DNA of 36,269 nt from a virus: the IMG/VR virus record IMGVR_UViG_3300025120_000211, positions 1 through 36,269 of that record; one strand, written 5' to 3'. The notes beneath the pieces are model-generated. The model saw only the letters and a program-made list of their open reading frames with translations. It was not told where the DNA came from and ran no database searches. Made by a program: the position numbers and the translations under genes. Position 1 is the first letter of the stretch. Every line of letters begins with the position of its first letter. This document shows, piece by piece, positions 2,903 through 26,563 of the stretch.

Positions 2903-3349
2903 ATGTATGAATATAGTTGCGAAGTTAAAAGGGTGGTTGATGGTGACACTATGGATGTTATTCTTGATCTCGGCTTTGATATTCTGTATTTTTCTAGGGT
3001 TCGTTTGGGTGGGATTGATACTCCCGAGTCGAGGACTCGTAACTTGGATGAAAAAGCACGGGGTAAGCTTGCCAAAGCTTTTCTTCAAGAATGTATTAAA
3101 GGAAAAAAAGTTGTATTAAAAACAAGATTAAAAGACTCAAGAGGAAAATTTGGAAGAATAATAGCAGATGTTTGGGTTGAATTTGAAAAAGGATCAATGC
3201 AAAACGTTAATGAATTAATGATAAAAGAATATCATGCAGTTAAATATAATGCAGAAAATAAAGCATTAGTAGAAGAAGCTCATTTAGCTAATCGAGCAAT
3301 ATTAATAGAAAAAGGTTTGTTTGTTCCAAAGGTAAAAAATAATGATTAA
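2903..3349 (+). CDS. Staphylococcal-nuclease homologue (SNase/thermonuclease), 148 aa
   Basis: A single SNase (OB-fold) domain fills the protein. VVDGDT (D13, D15) corresponds to the calcium-binding D19/D21 of staphylococcal nuclease. RVRLGGIDTPES supplies R34, D39 and E42 (R35, D40, E43 of the model enzyme). R84 in GKFGRIIADV matches R87. All catalytic residues are therefore present. There is no signal peptide, so it should act inside the cell, probably in host DNA degradation. The family is known to cut single- and double-stranded DNA and RNA. The first part of the gene (about 2941-3090) is visibly GC-richer than the rest. The end overlaps the next gene by 8 bases. Confidence 0.9.
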   Translation: MYEYSCEVKRVVDGDTMDVILDLGFDILYFSRVRLGGIDTPESRTRNLDEKARGKLAKAFLQECIKGKKVVLKTRLKDSRGKFGRIIADVWVEFEKGSMQNVNELMIKEYHAVKYNAENKALVEEAHLANRAILIEKGLFVPKVKNND

Positions 3350-4433
3350 AAATTATATTTCTTTTATTAATGTATTTTTAGTTATTTCAATATTAGGAAT
3401 TAGTTCTTTAAATTTAAATGCAGCTACAGAACAAACAGGAACAGGTTGTACTAATGGTACAGATAATTGTGAAAATAATAATTTAACAACAGTAAATACA
3501 ACAACAACAGCCAACACCAATACTAATACTTCAACTGCAACAAATACTAATAATAATACTAACTCAAATACAAATGTTAACACTACTACGACAACTGCTA
3601 CCAATACTGCTAGTAATACTAATGTTAATACTAATGCAAATACAAACGTAAATACTTCAACAGCAACTACTACAGCAACTTCTACTAACAATAATGCAAA
3701 CACTAATGTAAATACAAGTACATCAAATAATGTTTCAAATGTTACTCAAGCAGTTACAAACAACACTACATCTAACAACACCAGTAACAATACATCTACG
3801 TCAAACAATACTAATGTAAATAATAGTACATCTGACTCTAATGTTACGACAGACAATACAAATACTAACAATAACAATATAAACGCTAATAACACGAATA
3901 CAAACGTAAATAAGTCTACTTCTAAGCAAATTATTGAACAAACAGTTAAAAGTCCACCAGCGTCAGCTATAGCACCTTCAATCATGTCTTATTCACAAGA
4001 CTTATGTACAGTTGGTAGATCAGGAGCTTTTCAAGGTCAAGTTTTTGGTATATCAACAGGCAGAACAGTAATAGACCAAAATTGTGAAAGATTAAAGCTT
4101 AGTAAATATTTATATGATATGGGGATGAAAGTAGCTTCAGTAAGTTTACTTTGTCAAGATGCGAGAGTATTTAAAGCTATGGAAATGGCAGGAACACCTT
4201 GTCCTTACAATGGAAAAATAGGTAAAGAAGCTACAGCCGAATGGGAACAAAATAAATCTAAACGACCAGATTCTAAAGATGTTGAAAAAGAATATGTAAA
4301 AAAATGCACACAAAACGCAAATCCTAAAAGAAATAAAATTAATAAAGATGTTGTTGGTTTAGTTAAAAAAACTTACACAACAAAAACTAAAACTAATAGA
4401 CAATGCAAAAAAGAATTTTACTCTACGCAATAG
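3342..4433 (+). CDS. Exported Asn/Thr-rich protein with conserved Cys domain, 363 aa
   Basis: Residues 1-28 form a signal peptide: basic N-terminus, hydrophobic core VFLVISILGISSL, and an NAA cleavage-like site before TEQ. Residues about 48-195 are low-complexity Asn/Thr/Ser. The C-terminal region (about 205-300) is a compact domain with spaced cysteines: DLCTVGRSGAFQGQVFGIST, DQNCERLKLSKYLYDMGMKV, SLLCQDARVFKAMEMAGTPC. I recall this Cys domain from other marine phages but no function is known for it. The cysteines plus the signal peptide suggest a disulfide-bonded periplasmic or cell-surface protein. It overlaps the SNase gene by 8 bases and the next gene by 31 bases, so expression is coupled. 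Confidence 0.8.
   Translation: MIKNYISFINVFLVISILGISSLNLNAATEQTGTGCTNGTDNCENNNLTTVNTTTTANTNTNTSTATNTNNNTNSNTNVNTTTTTATNTASNTNVNTNANTNVNTSTATTTATSTNNNANTNVNTSTSNNVSNVTQAVTNNTTSNNTSNNTSTSNNTNVNNSTSDSNVTTDNTNTNNNNINANNTNTNVNKSTSKQIIEQTVKSPPASAIAPSIMSYSQDLCTVGRSGAFQGQVFGISTGRTVIDQNCERLKLSKYLYDMGMKVASVSLLCQDARVFKAMEMAGTPCPYNGKIGKEATAEWEQNKSKRPDSKDVEKEYVKKCTQNANPKRNKINKDVVGLVKKTYTTKTKTNRQCKKEFYSTQ
3487..3924 (+). repeat. Asn/Thr/Ser low-complexity coding repeat
   Basis: Imperfect short repeats of AAT/ACT/ACA codons encode about 145 residues of NTNTNVNTSTAT-like sequence inside the 363-aa exported protein. There is no fixed unit length. Codon choices vary between copies, so this looks like selected protein composition rather than a recent simple-repeat expansion. 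It is probably a flexible linker between the signal peptide and the C-terminal Cys domain. Confidence 0.8.
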
Positions 4434-6625
4434 CGTGTTTTTTTAGTTTTAATGTTTTAAGTGAATATACTTACGAAGCAAATCAGAGTCTTATAGATTT
4501 AACAAATCAAAGTGGTACAACTAATTTAAACGCAAGTGATGATGGTGTATCTTCTGCTTTTAACTTAGGTTTTACTTTTGATTTTTATGGTCAGTCGTTT
4601 ACTCAAGCAAGAATAGCAACTAATGGTTGTTTGCATTTTAAAACAAGTGGTGCTTATTGTAATGACTACACCCCAGATTTATTGCCTGAAGTAACTTATA
4701 CACTTTATCCATTTTGGACAGACTTAATTAGAGACAACAATTCTAAAATGTTAGGAAAAGTATTTAACGATAAAACAGTTTTTGGTTGGTACAATTTAAG
4801 AGAATACAACCGCAGTAGTTCTAACAACAGTTTTGAAGTTATATTGTGGACTAACGATACTTTTGATTTTAGGTACGGAGGTTTAGATGTCATACAACAT
4901 GATGTACTAATAGGAGAACAAGGTACTTCTTCTCAAACTTATCAATATTTATTTCACGATGAATGCGGAACTGGAACAACTAATGTTTCAGGAAGTTGTG
5001 TAAGTACAGATTGGAACAATACTAATTCTAATACTTTGTTAGAAAATGGCGGTTCTTTGTATGGAGTAGGAACAGGAAATTCATTAGATTGTTCTGATGT
5101 TTTAAGTAATACAGCTTGTGAAGGATATGCAGCAGCGTATTTAACTCAACAATGTAGTATTACTCAACTGTATAGTGAATCATGTCCTAGTTACCTACAA
5201 GCTTATGATGACCAACAATGTGATGATAATTCACAATACGCTCCATTTTGTGCAGGATATAGACAAGAATCTTCTGTAGCTTACTTTGATCCATATGAGT
5301 TTGATTATGGACATGAACAAGAAGATATGTGGTATGACACAGAATATGATGAATGGTTAGACCCTAGTGATCCTTGTTATGAAAATGCTTGTGAAAATTT
5401 TACAGATGCTGATTGGTACGAATTAGATGTTGAGCAGTTTGGACAAGAACAAGTAGATCAATGGTTTGGAAATGAATTAGAGTTTAGTAATGACGGCATA
5501 ATTAACTGGGAAACTACTTCTGTTACATCTTATGATGATATAGATATTCAAATGGATATATTTGATACACAGTATCAAGAAGATATTCTTATAGATCAAT
5601 TTACATTTCAAGAAACTTTTTTAGTAGAAGACTATAGTGAACCTGAAACATTTATAGAATTTAATAGTATAGAAGAATTAGACGAATGGTTTGAAGAAGA
5701 ATTAGAAGCACAAGAAGAACTTGCTGAAACAGAAGAAGAACTGCAAGAAATAGCTAGTATAGAAGAAGAACCAGAAGAAGAATTTATAGAAGAAATATTT
5801 GAAGAAGAAGCAGTAGAAGAAATATTTGAAGAAATAGAAGAACGATTAGCAGAAGAAGAAATTAGAGAACAAGAAGAAGAAATATTTGAAGAAGAGTTGA
5901 ATGAACTTGAAATTTCTGAAAGAGAAGAAAGAGGTGAAAGTTCTATGACAAGAGAAAGAGCTATAAGTGTGGTGAATAGTACTATAAGAACAGCTAATAA
6001 TAGTTTTTCTAATACAACTTCATTTAACAGCTCTAATGTTACAAATAATAATACTTCAAGCGTTAGTAATACATCCTCTAGTAATGGAATAAGCACAAGC
6101 AGTTCTCCAAGCAGATCAGATCAATTTAATTCTGCTACCATGCAATCTAATACAATTCTTTCGTTAAATGGAAACACAGGAACAGTTGGCAATGTATCTA
6201 TTAGTATTACTCCTATGCCAGCTTTAGACAATAACCCACAAGTAGTTATGGCTGATGTTCAAGTTAATAACATGAATAATCAAATAGATACTGCTATATC
6301 TGGTGTAATGACTTCTTCTGAAGCAGATCAAATAGCTGATAAAATAATAGCTAATAATATAAAAGAACAACAAGAAGAAGGGCAGACAGCACAAGAAGAA
6401 ACAGGTAAGTATGGCGAAGAAGCTAATTTAGTTGCTTATATGGGATATGTAGTAGGTTTTGATTCTTATAAATCTGTAGAAATTCCAACACAACCAACAT
6501 GGTATGAAGATAAAACTATATATAACACAGCATATTTGCCAGATAATATCACTGGATATTATAGTTTAGCTAGTAGTAATATAAGTATGATGAATAGTAT
6601 GATTAGTTTACAACCAAATTTATAG
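4403..6625 (+). CDS. Exported 740-aa protein with NIDO-like N-terminal domain and Glu-rich segment
   Basis: Residues 1-20 are a signal peptide (MQKRILLYAIACFFSFNVLS). Residues about 21-200 resemble extracellular NIDO/lectin-like beta domains: LGFTFDFYGQSFTQARIATN, then YPFWTDLIRD and FEVILWTNDTFDFRYGG. Residues 190-300 contain many cysteines (C188 to about C350), compatible with disulfides outside the cytoplasm. Residues about 428-510 are extremely Glu-rich helix, and 520-580 are Ser/Asn-rich. The last 100 residues look globular again. It starts 31 bases inside the previous exported protein, so the two are made together. No exact family is recognised; a surface, receptor-masking or virion decoration role is inference. 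Confidence 0.75.
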   Translation: MQKRILLYAIACFFSFNVLSEYTYEANQSLIDLTNQSGTTNLNASDDGVSSAFNLGFTFDFYGQSFTQARIATNGCLHFKTSGAYCNDYTPDLLPEVTYTLYPFWTDLIRDNNSKMLGKVFNDKTVFGWYNLREYNRSSSNNSFEVILWTNDTFDFRYGGLDVIQHDVLIGEQGTSSQTYQYLFHDECGTGTTNVSGSCVSTDWNNTNSNTLLENGGSLYGVGTGNSLDCSDVLSNTACEGYAAAYLTQQCSITQLYSESCPSYLQAYDDQQCDDNSQYAPFCAGYRQESSVAYFDPYEFDYGHEQEDMWYDTEYDEWLDPSDPCYENACENFTDADWYELDVEQFGQEQVDQWFGNELEFSNDGIINWETTSVTSYDDIDIQMDIFDTQYQEDILIDQFTFQETFLVEDYSEPETFIEFNSIEELDEWFEEELEAQEELAETEEELQEIASIEEEPEEEFIEEIFEEEAVEEIFEEIEERLAEEEIREQEEEIFEEELNELEISEREERGESSMTRERAISVVNSTIRTANNSFSNTTSFNSSNVTNNNTSSVSNTSSSNGISTSSSPSRSDQFNSATMQSNTILSLNGNTGTVGNVSISITPMPALDNNPQVVMADVQVNNMNNQIDTAISGVMTSSEADQIADKIIANNIKEQQEEGQTAQEETGKYGEEANLVAYMGYVVGFDSYKSVEIPTQPTWYEDKTIYNTAYLPDNITGYYSLASSNISMMNSMISLQPNL

Positions 6626-13306: not shown

Positions 13307-13798
13307 ATGTTAAATGCAAATAGTTTTGATGAAGCAGATACTAATTATGTTGATATTAAAGAAGAATATCCAGATTATATTATTAGTTTAATACCTCTTA
13401 ATTATATCTATACAGTTTGGGATGATGCTAAACCACATTTAGAAAAAGCAGTAAAACGTTCTAATGGACGTTGGACAATAGATTCTGTGCATCAAGCATT
13501 ATTAAATGATCAACAACAGTTGTGGGTAACTTTAGATAAAGATAATAAGTTATTAGGAGTAGCTACAACTCAATTTGTAAGGTATCCCGCTAGTTTAATG
13601 TGTGCTATTCAATACATTGGCGGTGATGAATTTAAACACTGGGCTTGGTTGCTCTGCAAAAAACTGGAAGCTTGGGCTAAAGACTCAGGTTGTGACGGTA
13701 TTGAAGGAACAGCTAGGTTTGGATTTTGGAAATGGTTAAGTAGGTCTAATTGGAAGAAAGCTTATACGGTATTTGAAAAGAGGTTTGACAATGAGTAA
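13307..13798 (+). CDS. GNAT-like protein in virion gene cluster, 163 aa
   Basis: The pattern suggests a small acetyltransferase-type (GNAT) fold: an N-terminal helical part with AKPHLEKAVKRSNGRWTIDS, a central strand pair (QQLWVTLDKDNKLLGVATTQ), a helix (LLCKKLEAWAKDSGCDGIEG) and the ending FWKWLSRSNWKKAYTVFEKR. Phage proteins with this ending and size, placed next to tail or internal virion genes, are common and are usually called acetyltransferases, though the acetyl-CoA loop is poorly conserved in them and also here. A substrate cannot be named. It overlaps the next gene by 8 bases. Confidence 0.65.
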   Translation: MLNANSFDEADTNYVDIKEEYPDYIISLIPLNYIYTVWDDAKPHLEKAVKRSNGRWTIDSVHQALLNDQQQLWVTLDKDNKLLGVATTQFVRYPASLMCAIQYIGGDEFKHWAWLLCKKLEAWAKDSGCDGIEGTARFGFWKWLSRSNWKKAYTVFEKRFDNE

Positions 13799-14816
13799 AG
13801 GCGGTAGCGGAAGTGGTGTTAATGAAACCACATCAACAGTAACACAATCTAATCTTCCTGAGTATGCAGAGCCATACATAACGAGATTAATGCAACGAGC
13901 AGAGACAGAATCTCTTGCTCCTTATACAACTTATGAAGGGCAAAGACTTGCTACTTTTACTCCTGAACAAGAGTTAGCTATGACAGGTAAAGCTGGTTTA
14001 GCTGTAGCAGGAGACCCTGCTCAATTTGGAATAGCATCAGATGTAACAGGAAACTTAGCACAAAATCAAATACAAGGTCCAGATGGACAATTGAGAACAG
14101 CAATTGGTTCTGGACAAAATTTAGCTTTACAAAGATTTAATCAACAAACTGGTGTTGATGCAAGCGGTGCTCCTGTATATGGAAATATAAATTCTTACAT
14201 GAATCCATATCAACAACAAGTTATTGATATGGCTCAAAATGTAGCTAGAGAACAATCTCTTAGAGATTCAAATCTTATAGCACAGGATGCTGCTTTTTCT
14301 GGAGGTTTAGGTGGGTATCGTGAAGGAATAATGCAATCAGAAAGAGAAGGAAATTTAAATAAACAAATATCAGATATACAACTTGCAGGTTCAGCAGCAA
14401 ATTATGAACAAGCACAATCTGCTTACAATACAGATAGAGCAGCAAGATTAGGTGCTATTGGAATAGATCAACAAACCAGACAACAACAGTTAGCAGCAGC
14501 CAATCAATTAGGTAATTTAGGATTTGCTGGACAAACTGCTGAAATACAAAGAATGGATCAATTAGGGCAAGCAGGAACTGCTAGACAAGCTATGCAACAA
14601 CAACTTTATGATACAGGTTATCAAGAATTCCAAGATCAATTAGCTTATCCAAGACAGAACATAGCTTTTTATCAACAAGCATTGCGTGGAATGCCTATAC
14701 AACCGGGTCAGCAAGTATCTACTTACGCACCTACTCCTTCTGCAGCATCATCAATGTTAGGAATGGGTCTTGGAGGTTTAGGTCTTTATCAAGCAATGGG
14801 AGGAATGGGAGCTTAA
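13791..14816 (+). CDS. Virion structural/internal protein, 342 aa
   Basis: I choose the ATG at 13791 (MSKGGSGSGV) because GAGG is 7 bases upstream; an in-frame ATG at 13773 lies further inside the previous gene. The N-terminus (NLPEYAEPYITRLMQRAETE followed by YEGQRLATFTPEQELAM) recurs in structural proteins of marine podoviruses. The body is a long helical, Gln/Ala-rich region (EREGNLNKQISDIQLAGSAA, NYEQAQSAYN) and the C-terminus is Gly/Met-rich. No enzymatic motif is present. It is most likely a tail or internal core protein. Its stop codon lies inside the first palindromic repeat, after which the 433-aa gene begins. Confidence 0.75.
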   Translation: MSKGGSGSGVNETTSTVTQSNLPEYAEPYITRLMQRAETESLAPYTTYEGQRLATFTPEQELAMTGKAGLAVAGDPAQFGIASDVTGNLAQNQIQGPDGQLRTAIGSGQNLALQRFNQQTGVDASGAPVYGNINSYMNPYQQQVIDMAQNVAREQSLRDSNLIAQDAAFSGGLGGYREGIMQSEREGNLNKQISDIQLAGSAANYEQAQSAYNTDRAARLGAIGIDQQTRQQQLAAANQLGNLGFAGQTAEIQRMDQLGQAGTARQAMQQQLYDTGYQEFQDQLAYPRQNIAFYQQALRGMPIQPGQQVSTYAPTPSAASSMLGMGLGGLGLYQAMGGMGA

Positions 14817-14850: not shown

Positions 14851-16152
14851 ATGAACATATTACAATTAGAAGACGACATAAAATCATTACCAGATAAAAA
14901 TTTAATGAATGCAATGCAAACAGGAGATTATCCTCAGTATTTAGTATTGTCTGAATTAAAACGTAGAAAAGAAATGAGAGATGACTATAAAGGTCGTATG
15001 GCAGCTCAAGAGCCAGATAATACTGTTGCAGATAGAATTGTAAATGAAGCTAGTATGGACATGAGCAATCAAGGAATTGGTAACATAGTTTCTCCAGAAG
15101 TAAGAAATATGCAAGGAATGCCACAGAATACACCTCAAATGCCTATAGACAATCAAGGTATAGGACAAATGATGCCTAGTAGTATGCAAGGCATGAAAGA
15201 CGGACGTACAGTTTATCCAAATGCAGGTCTTGCAGCATTAGCAGAAAAAGCTCCTGATGTAGTAAAAAGTATGGGATATAGTCAAGGAGGCATTGTACAG
15301 ATGGCTCCGGGACAAACCGTTCCTTTTTCTGACCCAAGACTTACAGGTTATTTAAATATGTTTGAAGAAAGATTAAAAAGTAGTCCTGAAGAAGATGCTT
15401 ATAGAGAACAAATAAATCAATATTTTAATCCATTAGAACAAGAAAAAAGAAGAAAACAACAACAAGCGTATCAACTTATGAAAGCTGGATTAGCAGTAAG
15501 CAGCTCAGCTACACCAGAACAATTAAATAAAAATCTTGCACCTGTTATAGATTCGGCAATGAAAAGTTCTGGCGATAGAAGTAAAGAAAGTTTATTGCAA
15601 GGAAAATTACAATCTGGTTTTGCTAAAGAAGATAGAGAAAGAATTAGAACTGCAACAGAATTAGCATCTAAAGCTATGTACACAGATACTTTAAGAATGC
15701 AGGGAGACAAACCTACTTCTGAACAATTTTGGGTAAATTCTGTAGTAAATTCTGATCCATCAAAATTTGGAATTCCAATAATAGAAGATGGAAAAACAAC
15801 AGGTTATGAACCTAATGCAGCAGCTTTAGAACGAGCTGCTATATTGAAAAACTTTGGACAAGTTAATAGTGCTGAACAACGATTAATATCAGAGACTTAT
15901 GATAAAGCAGAAAAAAGCTGGGAAGATTTTAGTAGAAAACTGAGGGTAAATATAGAAAACGATAATAAAAATAACAAATTAGGTAAAACTGATAGTGAAA
16001 TTTTAGCAGAAGTAGAAGCAGCCAAATCTCAATATATGTTAAATCAAATACAAAAAGTAAAAGATACTTTAACAAGATACGGTAAAAAAGAAGGAGGACA
16101 AATTCCTATGCAAGATATTATGTATCCTAATTTTGAAAGTTATTCTGATTAA
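14851..16152 (+). CDS. Internal virion/ejection protein candidate, 433 aa
   Basis: The N-terminus (LEDDIKSLPDKNLMNAMQTG, DYPQYLVLSELKRRKEMRDD) is a helical pattern I recognise from proteins encoded just before the large internal virion protein of marine podoviruses. Met/Gln/Gly-rich loops (residues 75-120) follow, then the short motif SQGGIVQMAPGQTVPFSD, and a long helical half (160-400) with coiled-coil character. The protein ends with EGGQIPMQDIMYPNFES. There is no enzymatic motif. It lies 12 bases after a palindromic repeat and 3 bases before the 2848-aa gene, so it is probably made and packaged with that giant protein. Confidence 0.75.
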   Translation: MNILQLEDDIKSLPDKNLMNAMQTGDYPQYLVLSELKRRKEMRDDYKGRMAAQEPDNTVADRIVNEASMDMSNQGIGNIVSPEVRNMQGMPQNTPQMPIDNQGIGQMMPSSMQGMKDGRTVYPNAGLAALAEKAPDVVKSMGYSQGGIVQMAPGQTVPFSDPRLTGYLNMFEERLKSSPEEDAYREQINQYFNPLEQEKRRKQQQAYQLMKAGLAVSSSATPEQLNKNLAPVIDSAMKSSGDRSKESLLQGKLQSGFAKEDRERIRTATELASKAMYTDTLRMQGDKPTSEQFWVNSVVNSDPSKFGIPIIEDGKTTGYEPNAAALERAAILKNFGQVNSAEQRLISETYDKAEKSWEDFSRKLRVNIENDNKNNKLGKTDSEILAEVEAAKSQYMLNQIQKVKDTLTRYGKKEGGQIPMQDIMYPNFESYSD

Positions 16153-16154
16153 TA

Positions 16155-19100
16155 ATGTCTATTCAATATTTGCCTGACGGAAGGTTAATTAGCTTAAAAG
16201 ACAATTTAAGTCAAAATGAAATTGAAAAAGAAATTGAATTGTATTTACAAAATTATCCTCTTGAAATACAAGAAGAAATTATAGAAACAGATAATCAACA
16301 AATACCTGTTCCTAATACTGTAAAACCAATATCTGAATATACTGTAAAAGATTATTTAGGACAAGTTGGATTTGGTTACTCTGGAGGAATAAATCTTGGA
16401 GGTAATACAATACCTGAATTTGAAGATGTTGATAAAGATATTAAAGAAGAATTGTTGTCTTATAAACAAGGAGATAAAGAAGAAGGGGCAAGTTTTGGAA
16501 AAATAGCTAAAAACAGTTTAGGTATTGTAGAAAATTTAGCAAATCCTCTTCAAGACTATGCCGATAAAGTTCTTGAATTAAATGAATATGAAAAAGAATT
16601 AAATAATTTATCTGTAAAACAAAATTTATCCAAAGAAGAACAAGATCGTTATAAAGAGTTAGAATTAAAAATTAATGGTTCTGGTAAATCAAAAGAAGAA
16701 ATAAACCAAGAAGTAGCATCTAGTTTAGGAATGGGAGATATGCCTCCTTCTGCTGAAGCTTATTATGCTCGACAAAATCTTGAAGAACAATTAGGTTTAA
16801 AAGAACTAATTAGAATAGAAGTAGAAAGAAGAAAAAGACTTGAACAAAGACAAGAAGAAGCACCTGTAAGTAATGCTACTAAATATTTATTTGCATCTGC
16901 ACAAGACGAAAGAGCAGGTGGTGCTTTAGGTAAGGCTTGGGATAGTTATTGGAATGACTTATCAAAAGAACAAAAATTTGATGCTTTAGGAGATGTTGTT
17001 GGTATGTCAGCAGCTCCTGCTGCTTTAATTCTTGGTGCAAACTTTGCATCTGCTCTTACACTTCAAAGAATGCCGTGGATGTATCAATTTTTAGGGGCAG
17101 GAGCAGCAACAGGAACTACTTCTGGATATATTACATACGGAACATCGTTTGACGAATATCTTGTACAATCAGGATTAGACTTAACTAATCCAGAATCTGT
17201 TTTAGAAGTTTTTCAAGACAAAGAACTTATAGAAGAAGCAAAAGATTATGCAATGAATAGAGGATTAGCAGTAGGTTCTTTTGATGCAATTTCAGGTGGT
17301 TTTGCAACAAGAATGTTAGCTCCTGCACAAATAAATAACAAACTACTTGCAAGTATTATTAGAAAACCAACAGGAACGGATTTAGGATATTTACGCAGAA
17401 CAGGAATCAATATAGTTGCTCAAAGTCCTTTGCAAACTGGTTTACCAATGATAGGAGAAACTATTGCACAAGCCACAACTTTAAAAGACAATGAAAAATA
17501 TTCTGGTTTTGATATATTTGCTGAAGGTTTAGGAGAAATTCCATTTATAGGAGCTGATGCAACATTAGGTGGAATTTTATCTAGTCAAATGGATTCAACT
17601 AGAACTAAAAAAGAAAGAAAACAAGCAGATTTAAAACAAGCAGAAAGAGAGTATATATCTGTTTCATCTGTTTCAAATGATTTTGGTTATGGAAAAATAA
17701 CAGGAGAGTTTGTAAGTATAGATGAAGATACAGGAATAGAAACAACAGGTCTGCCTTACGGTAAAGATGTTTTTACAAATTATTATTCTAAAGAAGATTC
17801 TTTTAATATTTTTGCTAATACCGAAGAAGATATAGAAGCACCTAATCAGTTTGTTGCAAAATCTAACAATAGGGGTAAATTTAAAATAATAGATACCTAT
17901 AATAATGTAATAGAAGACGACATAGATTCTCAAAATGAAGCAGAAGAAAAATCTGGAACATATAATGTTTACTCAGGTATTAGATATTCTAAATATTTAA
18001 AAGATAGTAATTTAGAAATACAAAATATTCCAGATTCAAATTTAACAAGTAGAATTTCTGAATTTATGCTTGATCCTTATGAATCTAAAATTGCTATAGA
18101 AGAAATAAAAAACGACACTTTTATTTTTAATCAACCTCAATTTAATAGAATTTTAAATGCTATTGGAGAAAACACAACTGAATTTAATGTTCTACATTTA
18201 CAAAAAGTATTAAACGTTAAAGATTTTGATACGTTATTAAATCAAAAAGCTGAAGATTTATTGTTCAGAAAAACTAACACAATGCCTCCTGTTAGGATTA
18301 AGAAAAAAGATATAACTAATTTAAGTGAAGAATTAAATATAAATATAGATTTTCAATCTAATGGATTTAAATCTTTATCTTTAAAATTAGTTGGTCAATC
18401 TGATTACAACAAAATGAATAATGCTCAAAAACGTTATTTATATTCTTTTTTAAAGACTTTACCTGTTAACGAAACTGATAATAAAAATTTTCCTGATATG
18501 TCTCGAAGAGACTATTCTGTTAAACAAAAAGAACAAGTTATTGATTCATTAATTAAAAATCCAAAAAAAACCAATTTAAACGATATTTCTTTATCTTTAG
18601 GTTTAGACCCTACTGTAATAGAAAACAAAAGATTAGCTTCCCGTGTAAGGGAAGATTTAGTAATTTCTGGAGTTATTAACAAAACAGGAAGTAAATATAA
18701 ATTTAACCCTCAAGGCAGTTGGATTTTATCTAGACAAAATCAAATAGATTTAAATAACGATCCTACACTTCAAGAAGATTTAAATAAAACATTAAGATTT
18801 CAAGAATTTTTTGAAAATAAATTAAAAGAATTAAATTTACCAGATATTATAACTAAATTAAAACAAGGAATTATTTCTGTAAATGGTCAGAAAGATCAAG
18901 AAGCACTTGGAGTTTTTAATCCTTCATTAAAAGAAATAATATTAAGTGTAGCGAGTGCTAGAGAAAACGCATTAGCTAAAAATAATAAAGCTACTGAACA
19001 AGATATTTTAAATGAATTAACTGTAACATTTGGTCACGAAACAGTACATGCTACTAAATTATTAGATTTGTTTTCTGCTCAAGAATGGCAAAATTTAACA

Positions 19101-22100
19101 AACGCAACAGCTTCTACTCTTGTACCAAGAAAAACCGTAGAAGAAGTTACTGGTTCTAAACAAGCATATAGTCAATACATACAAAATTTAGGAAGAAAAC
19201 CTACATACTTTGATTTGCAAAGAGATGCTTATAAAAATCAAGAATACGACTCGGCAGAAGAAGCTCAAGAAACTGTAGTTGAAGAAGCTGTAGCTCTTCT
19301 TTTAGAAGATTGGTTTAAAAATCAAATAAAGTTAAATGGACAATCAAAAGGTATAGCAAACAAGACTAAAGATTTTTTTAAAGCTATAAATAATGGTTTA
19401 GAATATTCAGGATTTCAAACTTATGAAAATATTTTTAATAAATTATTATCAGGAAAAATAGGTAAAAGAGAAAGGGTTAATCAATATTCAAAACCTATTC
19501 CTGTCACAGTTAGAGATGAATTTGGAAATGTTTTATCTACTTATGAACAACAACCAAAAGTTTTAAGATCATCAGGAATAAATCGTTATAGAAATCTTTC
19601 AGGAGCTGTTGGAATAGATTTAGATAATGATGAATTAATACCTTCTTCGATGGATGAAGAGATTCCTATAATAGAACGTCCTTTGCAAGATTCACCAAAT
19701 CTAAGATTTAGTTTAAATAATATTCAACAAAGACCTACAAGTTTAGTAATTGAATTTATGCGTAATGCTAGAGAAGCAACTTATGGCAATGATTTTTCTA
19801 CAATACCTGCTGCTATATTAGAGAAAACAATGTCTAGTGATATTAATACCATTAGAAGATTTGGAAGAAAATTAAACTCTCAAGAATTTCAAGACGCACA
19901 AGCTCAATTATATTGGTATACGCAAGAAAATTTAAAACAATTAGGTTATAAAAATGGAAATGATATTGCTACATTATATTTAGTAGGTAACGCAAGTAAA
20001 TACAATGTTCTAACAACAAGCCAAGTAGAAGCAGAATCGTTTGCAAATGGTTTAACTCAAAGTCCTTATTCAATAAAAGGCGATGCAAAAAAAATAACAG
20101 AATATAAAGTTAGAAGATCAGATATTATTTTAACAACTGATATTATGTTTGCAAAAAATCCTCCTGCTTGGGCTGATAAAAACAATTTTTATATTACAAA
20201 ACCTCAAGCATTAAGAGGTGGCGGTAAAAATATTAGTTATCAAGAAGTTAAACCTATTAGAAAATTAAAAACAGGATTTAATAATGGTTATAGTAAATCT
20301 AAATTCAGTCTTAATAAAAGAAATCAAATATCTTCAATGGAATTTATGCGTTCCAAAGGAACAAGAGGTAAACAGGTATCAGAAAATTTACGAACATACA
20401 GCAAACCTACTGAAAGAGTAGGACAAGCCACACTTGAAGAAAAAAAATTAGCTAAAAGATTTAAACTAATTCCAAAAGAAAACGAAAGACTTATTTACGC
20501 TGCCAAAACATTCGAACCTAAAATAATTAAAGAAGTAGGAGATTTTAAAATAGTTAAAGATGATTATTTAGAAGGTAATTTAAATGTAGGAAAAATATTA
20601 GATGTAGATGTTGAATTGTTTCGTGATCCGGGTGGATTTGAAGGTGAAAATTATTCAATGGTAATAACAGATTCAAGAGCTATAGGAGATGGAAATGTAG
20701 GTTTGTATGCTAATAATTTAAAACAAGCTAAATTAGAAGCAGTATGGGAAATAGAAAAATTTGTAAAAGAATCTGTTTTAACAGACATAAGCGGAACAAG
20801 GTTATATCAAGTAGCAAACAACACAAAACTGTATCATTTTGAAGATAGTCCTAATGTTTTAAACTACTTAGAAGATAAATCGAGTTACGGTTTAGATGAA
20901 ATTGAATTTAAAGAAGGTAAAGAAGCTTTATTAAAGGCTATTAATTCTATTGATTATCAATATGATTTATTAAATCACTATGCTGTTACGGAAGGTTTAC
21001 GAAGAATGTTTGCAATAGAAGAAACTGCACCTAGTTTTAAAGAAAAATTAGGTGAAAATTGGGTAACTAAAAAAGAATATTTTCTTAATAGAGAATATAT
21101 AAATAATGGAAAAACTTTTAAAGGATATACAAAGTTACTTAATCTTGTTCAAGTTAAAGCTGAAAGTTACTCTCCTAATGAAGTAAAAAATAATAGAAAT
21201 GCTTTTATAGTTTTAGGTGCTCCTGCTTCTGGTAAATCATTCTTTTCTAAAGAAATAGCTAAAGAAAACAATTTAGCAATTTTAGACAGTGACGATATAA
21301 AAGCATTTATACCTGAATATGCAGGTGGTGTAGGAGCTAATGCAGTTCATCAAGAAGCTAAAGTTATAAATCAAAGTGTTTATGAAAATTTTCTTAGTGA
21401 AGGTAAAGATATGCTTTTACCTAGAGTTGGTGGAAAAGAAAATTTTAATCAAATAAAAAACACCATAAAACAATTAAAAAATAATGATTACAATGTTAAT
21501 CTTGTATTAGTAGATGTAGATACATCTAACAGTTTGCAAAGAATGTTAACTCGTTTTGCAGAAACAGGAAGATTATTACCTCCTAGTTATTTAGAGTCAA
21601 TTGGAAATACTCCAATAGATACTTATAATAGATTACAATATGAAGCAGATCAACACGCATGGATAGATAACAATGGCAAACCAAATCAAGAAATCATTAG
21701 GCAAAACACGGGAATATTACCCCCTTCTATCGGACGAGAACGAACAAATATCAGACAAAGAATCTCTGAGGGTAGCGAGGCTATTAACGACCAAATTATC
21801 GCAGAACAAACAACCCAAGAATACATAAGAGATTTAGATATTGCGATAGAGGGTGTTAAAACACTCAATGATGAGTCAGAAAAAAATAATTTAGTTCCTA
21901 AATACAATTTAAATGCTTCACAAGATGCACTTAAAGTAGCTTTTGAAACCGCAGCTAATAAATCTACAAGAACAGAATTATCTCCAGAAATCAAAAATAA
22001 ATATTCATTAAAGAAAGGAAAGCCTCTTAATCCTAATGCAGAAAGTTTAATCGAACATTATCAAACAGTAGACAATACACCAGACAAAACTTTCGGTGAA

Positions 22101-24701
22101 ATTTTATTAGCTACGGCTGATGCAACAAGGGAATTATCTAAAGACATCAGAAGTGGATTGGTAGATCAATACAGTATTTTTAATAAAATAGAAAAAGAAG
22201 CAGCAAAAGTACAAGGAATTTCAGAACAAAAAATATTAGCAAACACAAGTGCTTATGCTTCTATGTTGTTGTCAGACAGATCAGGAGAAATATGGAAAGG
22301 TTCTTTTTTTGAAGGCTTTCCTGTTTACGATGAAAAAGGTTATGTAAGGGTAGAGGTTATTTCTCCTAAAGACAATAAACCAGTTGTTCCTCCTATGAAA
22401 TTTTTAGAACCTCTTATGGTAAATTCACAATTACTTGGTTTATTTACATCAGTAAGAAATGTAGAAAGAGAAATAAATTTTGATCAACAAGGAAGAAAAG
22501 TTAAAACTACTAAAAAACAAATTGCAGAAGCAAAACAAGCTTTAAAAGATTATCCAATTTTAAATAAAGTATCAGAAGAATATAATCGTTGGAATGAACA
22601 CCTTGTTGATTTTTTAGTAGCAACACAAGTATTAGATGAAGCCACAGCTAAAATATGGCTTCAAAATTCTGATTACATACCTTTTTATAGGTCTTTAAGT
22701 GTTGATGAAAAAGGTCAGCAAGTAAAAACTGTAGGACCACAAGTATTAAAAGGTTTTTCTATGTCAAAAAATCTTTTTGTAGAAGCAAAAGGAAGCGAGA
22801 CAAAAAAAACTACCGATGCCATAACAGGTATAGCTCAAAATTTAAGAGCAGCAATAGAATCTGGAATGAAAAATGTCGCAGCAAATCGTTCTGTTAGAGA
22901 TTTGGTTAGTTTAGGTTATGCCCAACAAGTAGGAAATAACGTAAAAGGTAAAGAAGTAATTACTATAAGAGTTCAAGGAAAAAATAAAAGTTTTAATGTT
23001 AGTGATAAGGCAACTTACGAAGCGTATTTAGGATTTCAAGACGGATTTAATCCCTATACAGGTGGTTATACTATGCAAGCTGCAATAGGAGCTAAACTAT
23101 TATTTAGTGAAGTTATTACTAGAGCACCTAAATTTTGGGCAATGCAACTTTCCAGAGACTCTATTTCTGCTTGGGCATTATTAGGCATAGATGAATATAC
23201 ACCTTTTTTTACTTCATTAAATAATGCTGCAAAAATAACAGCAGGTATGATAACGGGTCGAGTTCCAGAAGGTTTTACTAAAATGCAAAGAGCTGGAGTT
23301 GTAACTAGATATGATCAAGGTATATTACAAACACAAGAAGATGCCAATATAATATTAAAAAGAGCTAAAAGAAATGCTATTAAAAGAAGTAAAAATTTAA
23401 CCCCAGAAAAAGTAGTTAGTCAACTTTGGGATAATAGTTTTATGCTTGCTTGGAACGCTACAGGACAAGGAACTCTTATAACTGATGCTGCTACAAGATT
23501 AGCTGTTTATGAAAGTATTTTAAAACAAACAGGCAATGAAGCAGAAGCAGTTTTTCAATCAATGGAAGTTATGAACTTTACTAGAAGAGGTAATAACCCA
23601 ATGATTCAAATAACGACTTCTTTAATTCCTTTTTCAAATCCTACAATGCAAGGTCTTGATCTTTTTATAAGAGCAATAACAGGAAAATACGGTCAGACAA
23701 ATTTAAAGAAAAAAGAAAGATTAAGAAAATTGTCTTTACGTCTAGGAAGTATCATGGCAACAACTCCTCTTTATTACTTAGCAGTAAAAGATACGGAAGA
23801 ATATAAAACAACTCCTCCAGAAATTAGAGCAAAAAATTATATATTTCCTACTAAAGAATGGTTTGGTCTTGATTATACAGTAAGATTTCCTAGTGCTTTT
23901 GAAGTTGGTTTTGCAACAAAAGAAATACCAGAAGCTTTACTAAGATATTTTGACAGTACAGATTCAGGCAAAATTGCAATAAAAAATATTCTTTCAAGTG
24001 CAGAAGACACTATTTTAGGTCCAATAAATCCTTTAAAAATTACTGCTTTAGCTCCAATAGCAGAAAATTATTTTAACAGAGACTCTTTTACTAAAGGACC
24101 AATAGTTCCAGAGCGTATGAGAGCAGGAGAATTAGATTATCTTAAAGACAGACCTTCTACTCCTTCAATTTATAAAAGTATAGGAAAATTAACAAACACA
24201 TCTCCTTTAATGATAAGAAATTTATCTGAAGGTTATTTTGCTTATCTAGGAACATATGCAGCTACATTGTATGATACTGCTAAAGATATTGGACCTTCAA
24301 CGGGTTGGGAAAAATCTTTGTTTACACAAGGTTTTGTTTTACCACCAGAACAAAAAGGATATGTAAAACACTTTTACGACATGAAAAAAATATTAGATGA
24401 TTACTTTGCTGATGCACAGAGGGTTATGGACAAAGAAGAATTCCTTCTTAACAATCCTTACGATGATAAGTATGACGATGATTTTACAATTCAAATGAAA
24501 ACATTACAAAAAGAACTTAATTTAAGGGGAGAATTAATTAAGGCTTACAACGAAGACAAAGAAGCAATATATTCATCAAATGTTTATGATGCAGATGAAA
24601 AGCGAGACAAAATAGAAACTATAGATAGAATAATAAATAAAGAATTAAAAGGTATTGATCAAGAAAGATTCAATCTTGAAAAACAACTAAGAGAAAGATA
24701 A
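16155..24701 (+). CDS. Giant polyvalent ejection protein, 2848 aa (peptidase-like, ART-like, zeta-kinase, LPD38-like)
   Basis: Reading along the protein: a helical N-terminus with coiled-coil (about 110-240); a hydrophobic segment at 275-305; a helix-turn-helix-like stretch at about 795-860; a metallopeptidase-like segment (about 890-1105) with HETVH at 961-965 and a downstream E-E-A-V-A at 1043, ending FQTYENIFNKLLSGKIGKRE; an ART-like segment (about 1205-1350, LYLVGNASKYNVLTTSQ); a zeta-toxin-type P-loop kinase (about 1680-1840) with Walker A GAPASGKS at 1688-1695, D1711/D1713, and RMLTRFAETGR at 1796-1806; and near the C-terminus (2300-2510) an LPD38-like region ending FTRRGNNPMIQITTSLIPF. 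This combination is typical of polyvalent proteins, which phages inject with DNA to disarm host defences. Domain names come from motif reading only; the kinase and HExxH are the surest. Confidence 0.85.
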   Translation: MSIQYLPDGRLISLKDNLSQNEIEKEIELYLQNYPLEIQEEIIETDNQQIPVPNTVKPISEYTVKDYLGQVGFGYSGGINLGGNTIPEFEDVDKDIKEELLSYKQGDKEEGASFGKIAKNSLGIVENLANPLQDYADKVLELNEYEKELNNLSVKQNLSKEEQDRYKELELKINGSGKSKEEINQEVASSLGMGDMPPSAEAYYARQNLEEQLGLKELIRIEVERRKRLEQRQEEAPVSNATKYLFASAQDERAGGALGKAWDSYWNDLSKEQKFDALGDVVGMSAAPAALILGANFASALTLQRMPWMYQFLGAGAATGTTSGYITYGTSFDEYLVQSGLDLTNPESVLEVFQDKELIEEAKDYAMNRGLAVGSFDAISGGFATRMLAPAQINNKLLASIIRKPTGTDLGYLRRTGINIVAQSPLQTGLPMIGETIAQATTLKDNEKYSGFDIFAEGLGEIPFIGADATLGGILSSQMDSTRTKKERKQADLKQAEREYISVSSVSNDFGYGKITGEFVSIDEDTGIETTGLPYGKDVFTNYYSKEDSFNIFANTEEDIEAPNQFVAKSNNRGKFKIIDTYNNVIEDDIDSQNEAEEKSGTYNVYSGIRYSKYLKDSNLEIQNIPDSNLTSRISEFMLDPYESKIAIEEIKNDTFIFNQPQFNRILNAIGENTTEFNVLHLQKVLNVKDFDTLLNQKAEDLLFRKTNTMPPVRIKKKDITNLSEELNINIDFQSNGFKSLSLKLVGQSDYNKMNNAQKRYLYSFLKTLPVNETDNKNFPDMSRRDYSVKQKEQVIDSLIKNPKKTNLNDISLSLGLDPTVIENKRLASRVREDLVISGVINKTGSKYKFNPQGSWILSRQNQIDLNNDPTLQEDLNKTLRFQEFFENKLKELNLPDIITKLKQGIISVNGQKDQEALGVFNPSLKEIILSVASARENALAKNNKATEQDILNELTVTFGHETVHATKLLDLFSAQEWQNLTNATASTLVPRKTVEEVTGSKQAYSQYIQNLGRKPTYFDLQRDAYKNQEYDSAEEAQETVVEEAVALLLEDWFKNQIKLNGQSKGIANKTKDFFKAINNGLEYSGFQTYENIFNKLLSGKIGKRERVNQYSKPIPVTVRDEFGNVLSTYEQQPKVLRSSGINRYRNLSGAVGIDLDNDELIPSSMDEEIPIIERPLQDSPNLRFSLNNIQQRPTSLVIEFMRNAREATYGNDFSTIPAAILEKTMSSDINTIRRFGRKLNSQEFQDAQAQLYWYTQENLKQLGYKNGNDIATLYLVGNASKYNVLTTSQVEAESFANGLTQSPYSIKGDAKKITEYKVRRSDIILTTDIMFAKNPPAWADKNNFYITKPQALRGGGKNISYQEVKPIRKLKTGFNNGYSKSKFSLNKRNQISSMEFMRSKGTRGKQVSENLRTYSKPTERVGQATLEEKKLAKRFKLIPKENERLIYAAKTFEPKIIKEVGDFKIVKDDYLEGNLNVGKILDVDVELFRDPGGFEGENYSMVITDSRAIGDGNVGLYANNLKQAKLEAVWEIEKFVKESVLTDISGTRLYQVANNTKLYHFEDSPNVLNYLEDKSSYGLDEIEFKEGKEALLKAINSIDYQYDLLNHYAVTEGLRRMFAIEETAPSFKEKLGENWVTKKEYFLNREYINNGKTFKGYTKLLNLVQVKAESYSPNEVKNNRNAFIVLGAPASGKSFFSKEIAKENNLAILDSDDIKAFIPEYAGGVGANAVHQEAKVINQSVYENFLSEGKDMLLPRVGGKENFNQIKNTIKQLKNNDYNVNLVLVDVDTSNSLQRMLTRFAETGRLLPPSYLESIGNTPIDTYNRLQYEADQHAWIDNNGKPNQEIIRQNTGILPPSIGRERTNIRQRISEGSEAINDQIIAEQTTQEYIRDLDIAIEGVKTLNDESEKNNLVPKYNLNASQDALKVAFETAANKSTRTELSPEIKNKYSLKKGKPLNPNAESLIEHYQTVDNTPDKTFGEILLATADATRELSKDIRSGLVDQYSIFNKIEKEAAKVQGISEQKILANTSAYASMLLSDRSGEIWKGSFFEGFPVYDEKGYVRVEVISPKDNKPVVPPMKFLEPLMVNSQLLGLFTSVRNVEREINFDQQGRKVKTTKKQIAEAKQALKDYPILNKVSEEYNRWNEHLVDFLVATQVLDEATAKIWLQNSDYIPFYRSLSVDEKGQQVKTVGPQVLKGFSMSKNLFVEAKGSETKKTTDAITGIAQNLRAAIESGMKNVAANRSVRDLVSLGYAQQVGNNVKGKEVITIRVQGKNKSFNVSDKATYEAYLGFQDGFNPYTGGYTMQAAIGAKLLFSEVITRAPKFWAMQLSRDSISAWALLGIDEYTPFFTSLNNAAKITAGMITGRVPEGFTKMQRAGVVTRYDQGILQTQEDANIILKRAKRNAIKRSKNLTPEKVVSQLWDNSFMLAWNATGQGTLITDAATRLAVYESILKQTGNEAEAVFQSMEVMNFTRRGNNPMIQITTSLIPFSNPTMQGLDLFIRAITGKYGQTNLKKKERLRKLSLRLGSIMATTPLYYLAVKDTEEYKTTPPEIRAKNYIFPTKEWFGLDYTVRFPSAFEVGFATKEIPEALLRYFDSTDSGKIAIKNILSSAEDTILGPINPLKITALAPIAENYFNRDSFTKGPIVPERMRAGELDYLKDRPSTPSIYKSIGKLTNTSPLMIRNLSEGYFAYLGTYAATLYDTAKDIGPSTGWEKSLFTQGFVLPPEQKGYVKHFYDMKKILDDYFADAQRVMDKEEFLLNNPYDDKYDDDFTIQMKTLQKELNLRGELIKAYNEDKEAIYSSNVYDADEKRDKIETIDRIINKELKGIDQERFNLEKQLRER

Positions 24702-25511: not shown

Positions 25512-25896
25512 TGACCAACTCCTTAAAAGTTTCTCTGGCTTCTCTGTCAGTAGCTAATTTTGATCTACTCACTATCTCTAATCGTTTCTTTAATTCTATA
25601 GAAGCTTGTTCTTCTGAAAACACACCCAAGTATGCCCAAAAAGATTTCTCTCTACAAAGCAATCCCGCTTGTGAAACTGCCTTTTGTCCTTCGCCTTTTA
25701 TCTTAGGCATAACAGGTTGCTCTTGATCATTGATCAATACCATTGCCACTTGATACCTAGACCCTGTTGGCTGTCGAAATAAATCCTCTGGTACATCGTC
25801 TGGATGTATAACTAGTGTCAGGTTAACTCCTTTAACATCTTTCCTCATGTAACTTTGTATTGCTTCAAAGCTCATTGCCATATCTCTAATCTTCAT
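25489..25896 (-). CDS. Conserved hypothetical phage early protein, 135 aa
   Basis: I start at 25896 (MKIRDMAMSF) because TAGGAGAAAAC directly precedes that ATG; the open frame extends 25 codons further but into the upstream gene. Central pattern: NLTLVIHPDDVPEDLFRQPT, GSRYQVAMVLIND, then SQAGLLCREKSFWAYLG. This arrangement (HPDDVP...GTR....V.I.DDE.P ... AG.LC....FW..LG) is a known but unassigned phage family often found near replication or recombination genes. There is no nuclease motif. It overlaps the Mom-like gene by 11 bases. Confidence 0.8.
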   Translation of the reverse strand: MKIRDMAMSFEAIQSYMRKDVKGVNLTLVIHPDDVPEDLFRQPTGSRYQVAMVLINDQEQPVMPKIKGEGQKAVSQAGLLCREKSFWAYLGVFSEEQASIELKKRLEIVSRSKLATDREARETFKELVNDFNRIA

Positions 25897-26536
25897 GTTT
25901 TCTCCTATTACTATCATCATTAATTTTTTTCCAATTTTTAGATTGCCATTTGCATTTAAGTTTTTTATCAAATACTAATAGAAATCTATGTTTTTGACTC
26001 CTTTCCTTCCATTCTCCTTCAAGACCTTTTATCTTTCCTCTGCTGTGTTTTATTATTTGTTCTCCTAAAAACAAATCATCTTGTTTAGATTTTATATAAA
26101 AATCTTTTTTCTTTTCTGAGAGTCCGTAATAACCAAAGTTTGATGCGGAATATATAACCCCACTATGATAATCATTGTCAGCGTAACTAAGAATTGCTCT
26201 GGTATATTCACTTGTTTTTAATAATTTAATTGCTCTAGCCATAAACCAAGTTGCTAGATTGTGTTCCTTGACTTGATGATTTGGTTCTAATACAAATCGG
26301 CTTAGTTCCCACAAACCATTCTGATCGTTTCTTTCTAAACCAAAACAAGATTGACTCAACTCTGGAACAGGGAAGCCTGTAAATATGCAACCACCAACAA
26401 TTTTTTTTTTATATATCAAACCCACATTGAAACCACTCTTAAATGAAATAGATACTTTAGATAAATAGTGATGCTCTCTCATTAAACGTTCTAAAACTTT
26501 TTTAGAAACTAGCATAACGTTGTAATCAGATTTCAT
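25886..26536 (-). CDS. Mom-like GNAT-fold acyltransferase, probable DNA modification protein, 216 aa
   Basis: I start it at the ATG at 26536; a TTG at 26560 is in frame but lies in the palindrome. Features match the Mu Mom-like branch of the GNAT superfamily: HHYL near residues 22-25, a strand pair around GGCIFTG (48-54), WELSRFVL (76-83), a helix (96-107), SYADNDYHSGVIYSASNFGY (117-136) and YYG. In Mom proteins the LSR and S-[YF]-AD...H-[ST]-G-x-[IV]-Y-x-A segments form the cofactor/active-site core, and Mom itself hypermodifies adenine so the phage escapes restriction. Length is close to Mom (about 230 aa). The exact chemistry here is unknown. It is preceded directly by palindrome copy 3 and has no clear ribosome binding site. 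Confidence 0.65.
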   Translation of the reverse strand: MKSDYNVMLVSKKVLERLMREHHYLSKVSISFKSGFNVGLIYKKKIVGGCIFTGFPVPELSQSCFGLERNDQNGLWELSRFVLEPNHQVKEHNLATWFMARAIKLLKTSEYTRAILSYADNDYHSGVIYSASNFGYYGLSEKKKDFYIKSKQDDLFLGEQIIKHSRGKIKGLEGEWKERSQKHRFLLVFDKKLKCKWQSKNWKKINDDSNRRKHED

Positions 26537-26545
26537 TGTTGTTAT

Positions 26546-26563
26546 ATATTGAATGCTCAATAT
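26546..26563. repeat. Palindromic element copy 3
   Basis: ATATTGA (26546-26552), centre ATGC, TCAATAT (26557-26563). It sits 10 bases upstream of the ATG of the Mom-like gene (minus strand) and abuts the stop of a possible 26-aa frame. Its core differs from copy 1 only at two central bases. A further, badly decayed look-alike lies at 26614-26628. Confidence 0.75.

Follow-up and report, generated by a model that had tools for sequence, protein, structure and literature searches.

The 2848-amino acid protein encoded in a viral contig of 36,269 bp (an IMG/VR record; the whole stretch is called the window below) is a phage-type polyvalent protein and adds a member to the LPD38 group. New here are a short motif that marks the joints between its segments and the recognition of its C-terminal module in full; the original prediction, made from the DNA letters, had overlooked both the motif and the much larger extent of the module. 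The explanation that we consider best overall, and on balance probable, is that of a virion-packaged, ejected multi-effector protein of a marine-type phage, processed by its own peptidase at the motifs.

The gene is a single ATG-to-stop frame with zero internal stops, in agreement with the predicted uninterrupted 8.5-kb frame for 2848 residues, and its start codon lies 2 bases past the stop of the preceding gene. The protein and its two upstream neighbours were mapped as follows (aa, amino acid positions; all on the plus strand).

13773-14816, +, DNA ejection protein family (phrog_4287), upstream partner; PHROG match, E 3e-16
14851-16152, +, directly preceding gene, possible ejection partner; place conserved in the relatives L018, L019 and L022
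16155-24701, +, polyvalent protein gene, 2848 aa; open frame
16155-16274, +, N-terminal leader (...YLPDGRLISLKDN...); similar, by eye, to the N-termini of relatives (MYNVELPDGTLVQVPDN...)
16932-17714, +, Gly/Ala-rich N-terminal segment, aa 260-520; L018 and L019 have homologues
18705-19469, +, zincin-type metallopeptidase-like domain, aa 851-1105; HETVH 961-965, EE 1043-1044
19704-19718, +, junction motif RFSLN, aa 1184-1188; in a linker modelled at low confidence
19704-20300, +, degenerate ART-like cassette, aa 1184-1382; similarity to L019
20301-20315, +, junction motif KFSLN, aa 1383-1387; motif scan
20301-21194, +, cassette without assigned function, aa 1383-1680; relatives searched for, none found
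21198-21608, +, zeta-toxin-type kinase, aa 1682-1818; Pfam, Walker A GAPASGKS at 1688
21999-22013, +, junction motif KYSLK, aa 1949-1953, start of the C-module; low-confidence linker of the model
22011-24698, +, C-terminal delivery module, aa 1953-2848, helical, with LPD38 inside; alignment, profile and model
23796-24311, +, Pfam LPD38 match, aa 2548-2719; Pfam

Family searches of the open reading frames of the window identified gp10-like, ejection and replication genes. Of the two ejection-protein-like genes predicted upstream of the giant gene, the first was matched by PHROG as listed, but the product of the second (14851-16152) gave zero family matches in the same search. Because no terminase, portal or major capsid gene was recognisable among the scanned open reading frames, the record is a fragment; open frames are interrupted at both contig ends (1-220 and 35992-36267), which fits an incomplete contig. 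The piece at 1-220 resembles the C-terminus of a tail fibre. The nearest counterparts of the gp10-like protein are those of 52-65 kb phages, and contigs that share the order of ejection genes, giant gene and replication genes with the window reach 55-64 kb. The phage had been described as having a small genome and the size of its protein as remarkable. The small genome was not confirmed, since the record is incomplete and syntenic relatives occupy these 55-64 kb contigs, and to say that the gene fills a quarter of a small genome would be misleading. The protein size is not remarkable either, as similar giants are found in 37-kb phages, such as the 2715-residue relative of Vibrio phage 1.211.A in 37 kb (phage JC1 has a 4515-residue protein in 61 kb).

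Several other genes of the window were recorded. The minus-strand gene at 25886-26560 encodes a member of the Mom family (PF25680, E 3.9e-18), which modifies DNA bases and is linked to restriction avoidance. A tblastn search of the L018 and L019 stretches gave no match to this gene. Neighbouring genes at 3342-4433 and 4403-6625 encode proteins that both start with a hydrophobic stretch; one is Asn/Thr-rich and of low complexity and the other is Glu-rich with 740 residues, and no family matched the second of the pair (4403-6625). At 1475-2161 a PHROG family named ferredoxin was matched (E 2.3e-29), possibly an auxiliary gene.

The LPD38 match (PF18857, aa 2548-2719) was strong, with E 6.6e-25 and 88.7 bits against a cut-off of 27. 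LPD38 had been predicted at 2300-2510; the domain is present but lies further downstream, and 2300-2510 falls inside a larger homologous C-module (1953-2838, about 890 residues). Alignment revealed that about 850 residues of the C-terminal region are conserved, far beyond the Pfam domain, and 31 phage records match the C-terminal third alone at 21-27% identity. A scan of viral contigs yielded 67 loci and 42 non-redundant proteins, 36 of which have both a zincin and a C-module. The closest relatives, L018 and L019, are 35-43% identical in the C-terminal part, keep the zeta kinase, and have the same genes on either side of the giant gene. In every phage neighbourhood inspected, a protein of 2.2-3.2 thousand residues closes the virion genes. 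The model of the C-module (pLDDT 71, pTM 0.71) is similar to numerous predicted structures of phage proteins (best E 1e-43, TM 0.77); no solved structure was matched. A sequence search of the PDB gave nothing.

The C-module profile also matched proteins of cultured phages that are devoid of a zincin or recognisable cargo, namely gp8 of phage Lederberg EXVC029P, HTVC033P gp52, HTVC010P AGE60290 and Bacillus phage Page gp20. In EXVC029P the gene is flanked by an internal-virion protein region on one side and the tail fibre gene on the other, the slot at which T7-like phages keep their internal core proteins. In many phages, members of the C-module family close the virion module or take an internal-virion-protein slot. 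Since the module is present by itself in such slots, it is likely the constant delivery part of these proteins, a role read from genomic context, and the upstream domains are likely its cargo. The module is widespread, being shared by phages that infect Pelagibacter, Vibrio, Escherichia, Aeromonas, Achromobacter and Bacillus.

Some records of this survey deserve comment. Other slot occupants (HTVC027P gp85, 023Pt_psg01, HTVC023P, DSL-LC04 and CRP-901) were not matched by the C-module HMM, HTVC027P gp85 despite a resemblance by eye. The C-module gene of HTVC010P (L085, 5743-7257) encodes 504 residues versus 1254 in EXVC029P and has an unannotated gap upstream, possibly the sign of a broken or split gene. 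A 2392-residue zincin and C-module protein (L084) comes from a contig placed in a Candidatus Peregrinibacteria bin; either this phage infects a CPR bacterium or the binning is wrong. Limnohabitans phage DC33 (L172, PQ492659) carries an Inoviridae label, yet has 39 kb and a 3125-residue protein, and its taxonomy looks wrong. Three records of 65,014 bp each (OQ594354, OL906435 and PP438419) gave the same matches with Synechococcus, Planktothrix and Planktothricoides as stated hosts.

Zeta-type kinases are known as toxins, and the protein might accordingly stay unpackaged as a late intracellular toxin or host-takeover factor whose kinase works during lysis. We consider this very improbable given the virion-module position of the gene, the internal-virion-type slots of other C-module proteins, and the finding of an LPD38 relative in virions: gp69 of the Bcep22-like phage JC1, with LPD38 at 4195-4401, was detected by mass spectrometry, through 51 unique peptides, in virions purified on CsCl (PMC9144972). 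The last two observations make packaging and ejection of the window protein likely, and this part of the original prediction is well supported by homology. The polyvalent nature that had been proposed was also confirmed. One chain holds at least two biochemically disparate domains (zeta kinase and LPD38, both above cut-off, and a zincin signature), and the gene adjoins late/virion genes, following gp10-like and ejection genes in an order shared with L018 and L019.

Upstream of the C-module, the segments differ in how firmly they can be named. The N-terminal leader gave no match in a profile search. The Gly/Ala-rich segment at aa 260-520 is possibly membrane-active; an iterative profile built from this slice drifted to the end of the C-module and was not used. 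For the predicted metallopeptidase-like segment (890-1105), the HExxH sequence (HETVH, 961) and the downstream EE (1043-1044) show no variation across an alignment of 35 relatives, and the region matched relatives at E about 1e-7, but a Pfam search gave no match. An AF2 model (pLDDT 72) is mainly helical and contains the HExxH and Glu helices; it has no canonical zincin sheet, and comparison with PDB structures gave no match. Accordingly, aa 851-1105 is termed a peptidase by signature only. The ART-like segment, placed here at 1184-1382, does resemble the ART-like domain of L019 (Smith-Waterman score 67 versus 30 +/- 4.8 for shuffles), but the likeness is confined to this one close relative, and neither Pfam nor an ART profile built from relatives matched it. 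The expected catalytic Arg of the R-S/T-E triad is replaced by Leu (LYLVG versus VYRGG in L019), which probably leaves the segment without ART activity. For the next segment, 1383-1680, the protein set contained no relatives. The zeta-type kinase was predicted correctly (slice 1680-1840), with PF06414 matching aa 1682-1818 at E 1.4e-13 and 51.2 bits (cut-off 22.3). Its Walker A motif is intact, the kinase is common to L018 and L019, and it is the sole effector that could be identified. The proposal that the protein counteracts host defence found no support, as a PADLOC search gave nothing and no counter-defence domain was found.

The junction motif, [KR][AFYKM]S[LI][RNK], was defined on three relatives (L013, L014 and L016), in which such a pentapeptide recurs ahead of domains, and then tested on the 36 proteins. 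Between zincin and C-module it occurs 88 times in 45,020 residues, compared to a mean of 2.2 and a maximum of 7 in shuffles; 21 of the 88 copies are supplied by near-copies of the defining relatives (L062, L068 and L066). Elsewhere we counted 1 copy in 26,857 residues of N-termini, 0 in zincins and 1 in 29,928 residues of C-modules, so that 88 of the 90 copies are located between zincin and C-module. At least one copy is present in 30 of the 36 proteins, and in 27 a copy lies 30-75 residues ahead of the C-module (random windows, 2.2). Motif sites inside mapped cargo domains numbered 0/36 (P 5e-4); the Pfam-mapped ParB, GP88, topoisomerase IB, ART, GNAT and zeta domains sit between successive motifs, and L066 carries nine motifs bracketing known domains. 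Substituted or permuted control motifs were much rarer, with 0-10 occurrences in all 36 proteins. The information resides in K/R, F/Y, S, L and R, with little outside. In the window protein each of the three motifs (RFSLN 1184, KFSLN 1383 and KYSLK 1949) is at a junction. L019 has KYSLS, KYSLK and KYSFK at apparently matching junctions; the strict motif is absent from the closest relative, L018, which has KYSFN at its C-junction.

A functionless origin of the motif, as an inherited linker (for example the tail of ART-PolyVal domains) that spread with cassettes through duplication and recombination, would account for the copies that trail an ART tail (NPDIRYSLR) and for weak clustering of the motif on the zincin tree. 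We judge it improbable: copies also trail zincin, ParB, GP88, topoisomerase and other domains without a name, and 88 copies contrast with 2.2 expected. An intrinsic ART tail was rejected because ART proteins of other phages and families have no motif series, and a DNA-level recombination repeat because codons differ from copy to copy; both observations also speak against the inherited linker. A strict dependence on zincin clade was not clear-cut, as clustering on the tree was weak.

The main rival to cutting is that the protein is packaged and ejected uncut, with the motif as a docking peptide or hinge for packing, unfolding or threading the cargo. The position of motifs in flexible linkers would be expected of a docking peptide or hinge too, and the N4 virion RNA polymerase has a zincin domain yet is packaged unprocessed, which counts against cutting (Iyer et al., 2017, PMC5512222). 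However, the motif is concentrated in proteins having a zincin of the window type, and the motif series is absent from ejection-type C-module proteins that have long N-terminal parts and no zincin. We consider a docking or hinge role unlikely, if less so than an inherited linker.

Cutting by the embedded peptidase would be the simplest reading of the motif. The N-terminal zincin-type peptidase may, with a chance that we put at slightly below even, cut the linkers at [KR]-[FY]-S-[LI]-[RKN] motifs. Ser-Leu is the candidate cut bond, and it is plausible because thermolysin-type zincins favour Leu or Ile at P1', just past the cut bond. Cutting is weakened as a reading because the copy number of the motif varies, L018 has no strict copy, clustering on the zincin tree is weak, the zincin model lacks the canonical sheet, and many broader zincin relatives have no motif, including that of the cultured Ruegeria phage 45A6. 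None of the isolates checked carried it. Self-processing by zincins was proposed on other grounds, with no site named (Iyer et al., 2017, PMC5512222), and the motif would give content to this idea.

In the mechanism that we favour, the C-module of about 890 residues would probably bring the protein into the head together with the other ejection proteins, and deliver it at infection. The cassettes upstream would be interchangeable cargo accumulated by phages; here they would comprise the degenerate ART-like domain, a domain without assigned function and the zeta-type kinase, acting in the cell at entry. Tentatively, the kinase might slow host growth or wall synthesis by phosphorylating a small substrate such as a nucleotide-sugar. 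Cutting, in the virion or after ejection, would free the cargo from the delivery module. A large family of phage proteins might then be true polyproteins, a suggestion we make with some reserve, each consisting of an N-terminal zincin, a motif-closed series of cargo and a constant C-terminal ejection module; if so, cassettes would be freely exchangeable and released upon delivery. How domains are released from polyvalent proteins is a question raised in 2017, and a defined peptide at the joints makes it directly testable. It would also allow the cargo domains of giant phage proteins to be delimited by sequence alone, and it could shed light on the exchange of entry effectors among phages and on their delivery.

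Neither the junction motif nor the extent of the C-module is described in the open-access polyvalent-protein papers that were checked, although an earlier description elsewhere is possible. The N4 virion RNA polymerase is an ejected giant and also has a zincin domain associated with it (Iyer et al., 2017, PMC5512222), but its cargo is an RNA polymerase, and no sequence or fold match to the window protein was found. EXVC029P gp8, HTVC033P gp52, HTVC010P AGE60290 and Page gp20 share the C-module (E 5e-46 to 8e-83) in proteins of 504-1679 residues that lack a zincin, cargo that could be recognised and a motif series. JC1 gp69 (DarB-like, 4515 residues) resembles the window protein in its near-C-terminal LPD38, its position as the last large virion gene and its presence in virions, but differs in its lytic transglycosylase, methylase-helicase cargo and LPD3, with no zeta kinase listed (PMC9144972). 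The giants of Vibrio phage 1.211.A, the Escherichia phages Pondi/PTXU04, phage MinM2/Pag-Yong1, Aeromonas phage phiARM81mr and Achromobacter phage CF418P1 have a C-module that is 20-24% identical, the same genome slot and HExxH or HExxxH, but other cargo and no motif series of the window type. In place of this motif, the MinM2 giant (L005) repeats ESAR; its four copies are apparently near domain joints and are possibly the junction motif of another family. With the phage-type polyvalent proteins of the LPD38 group (Iyer et al., 2017, PMC5512222), the window protein shares disparate domains, a zincin, LPD38 and a location among virion genes.
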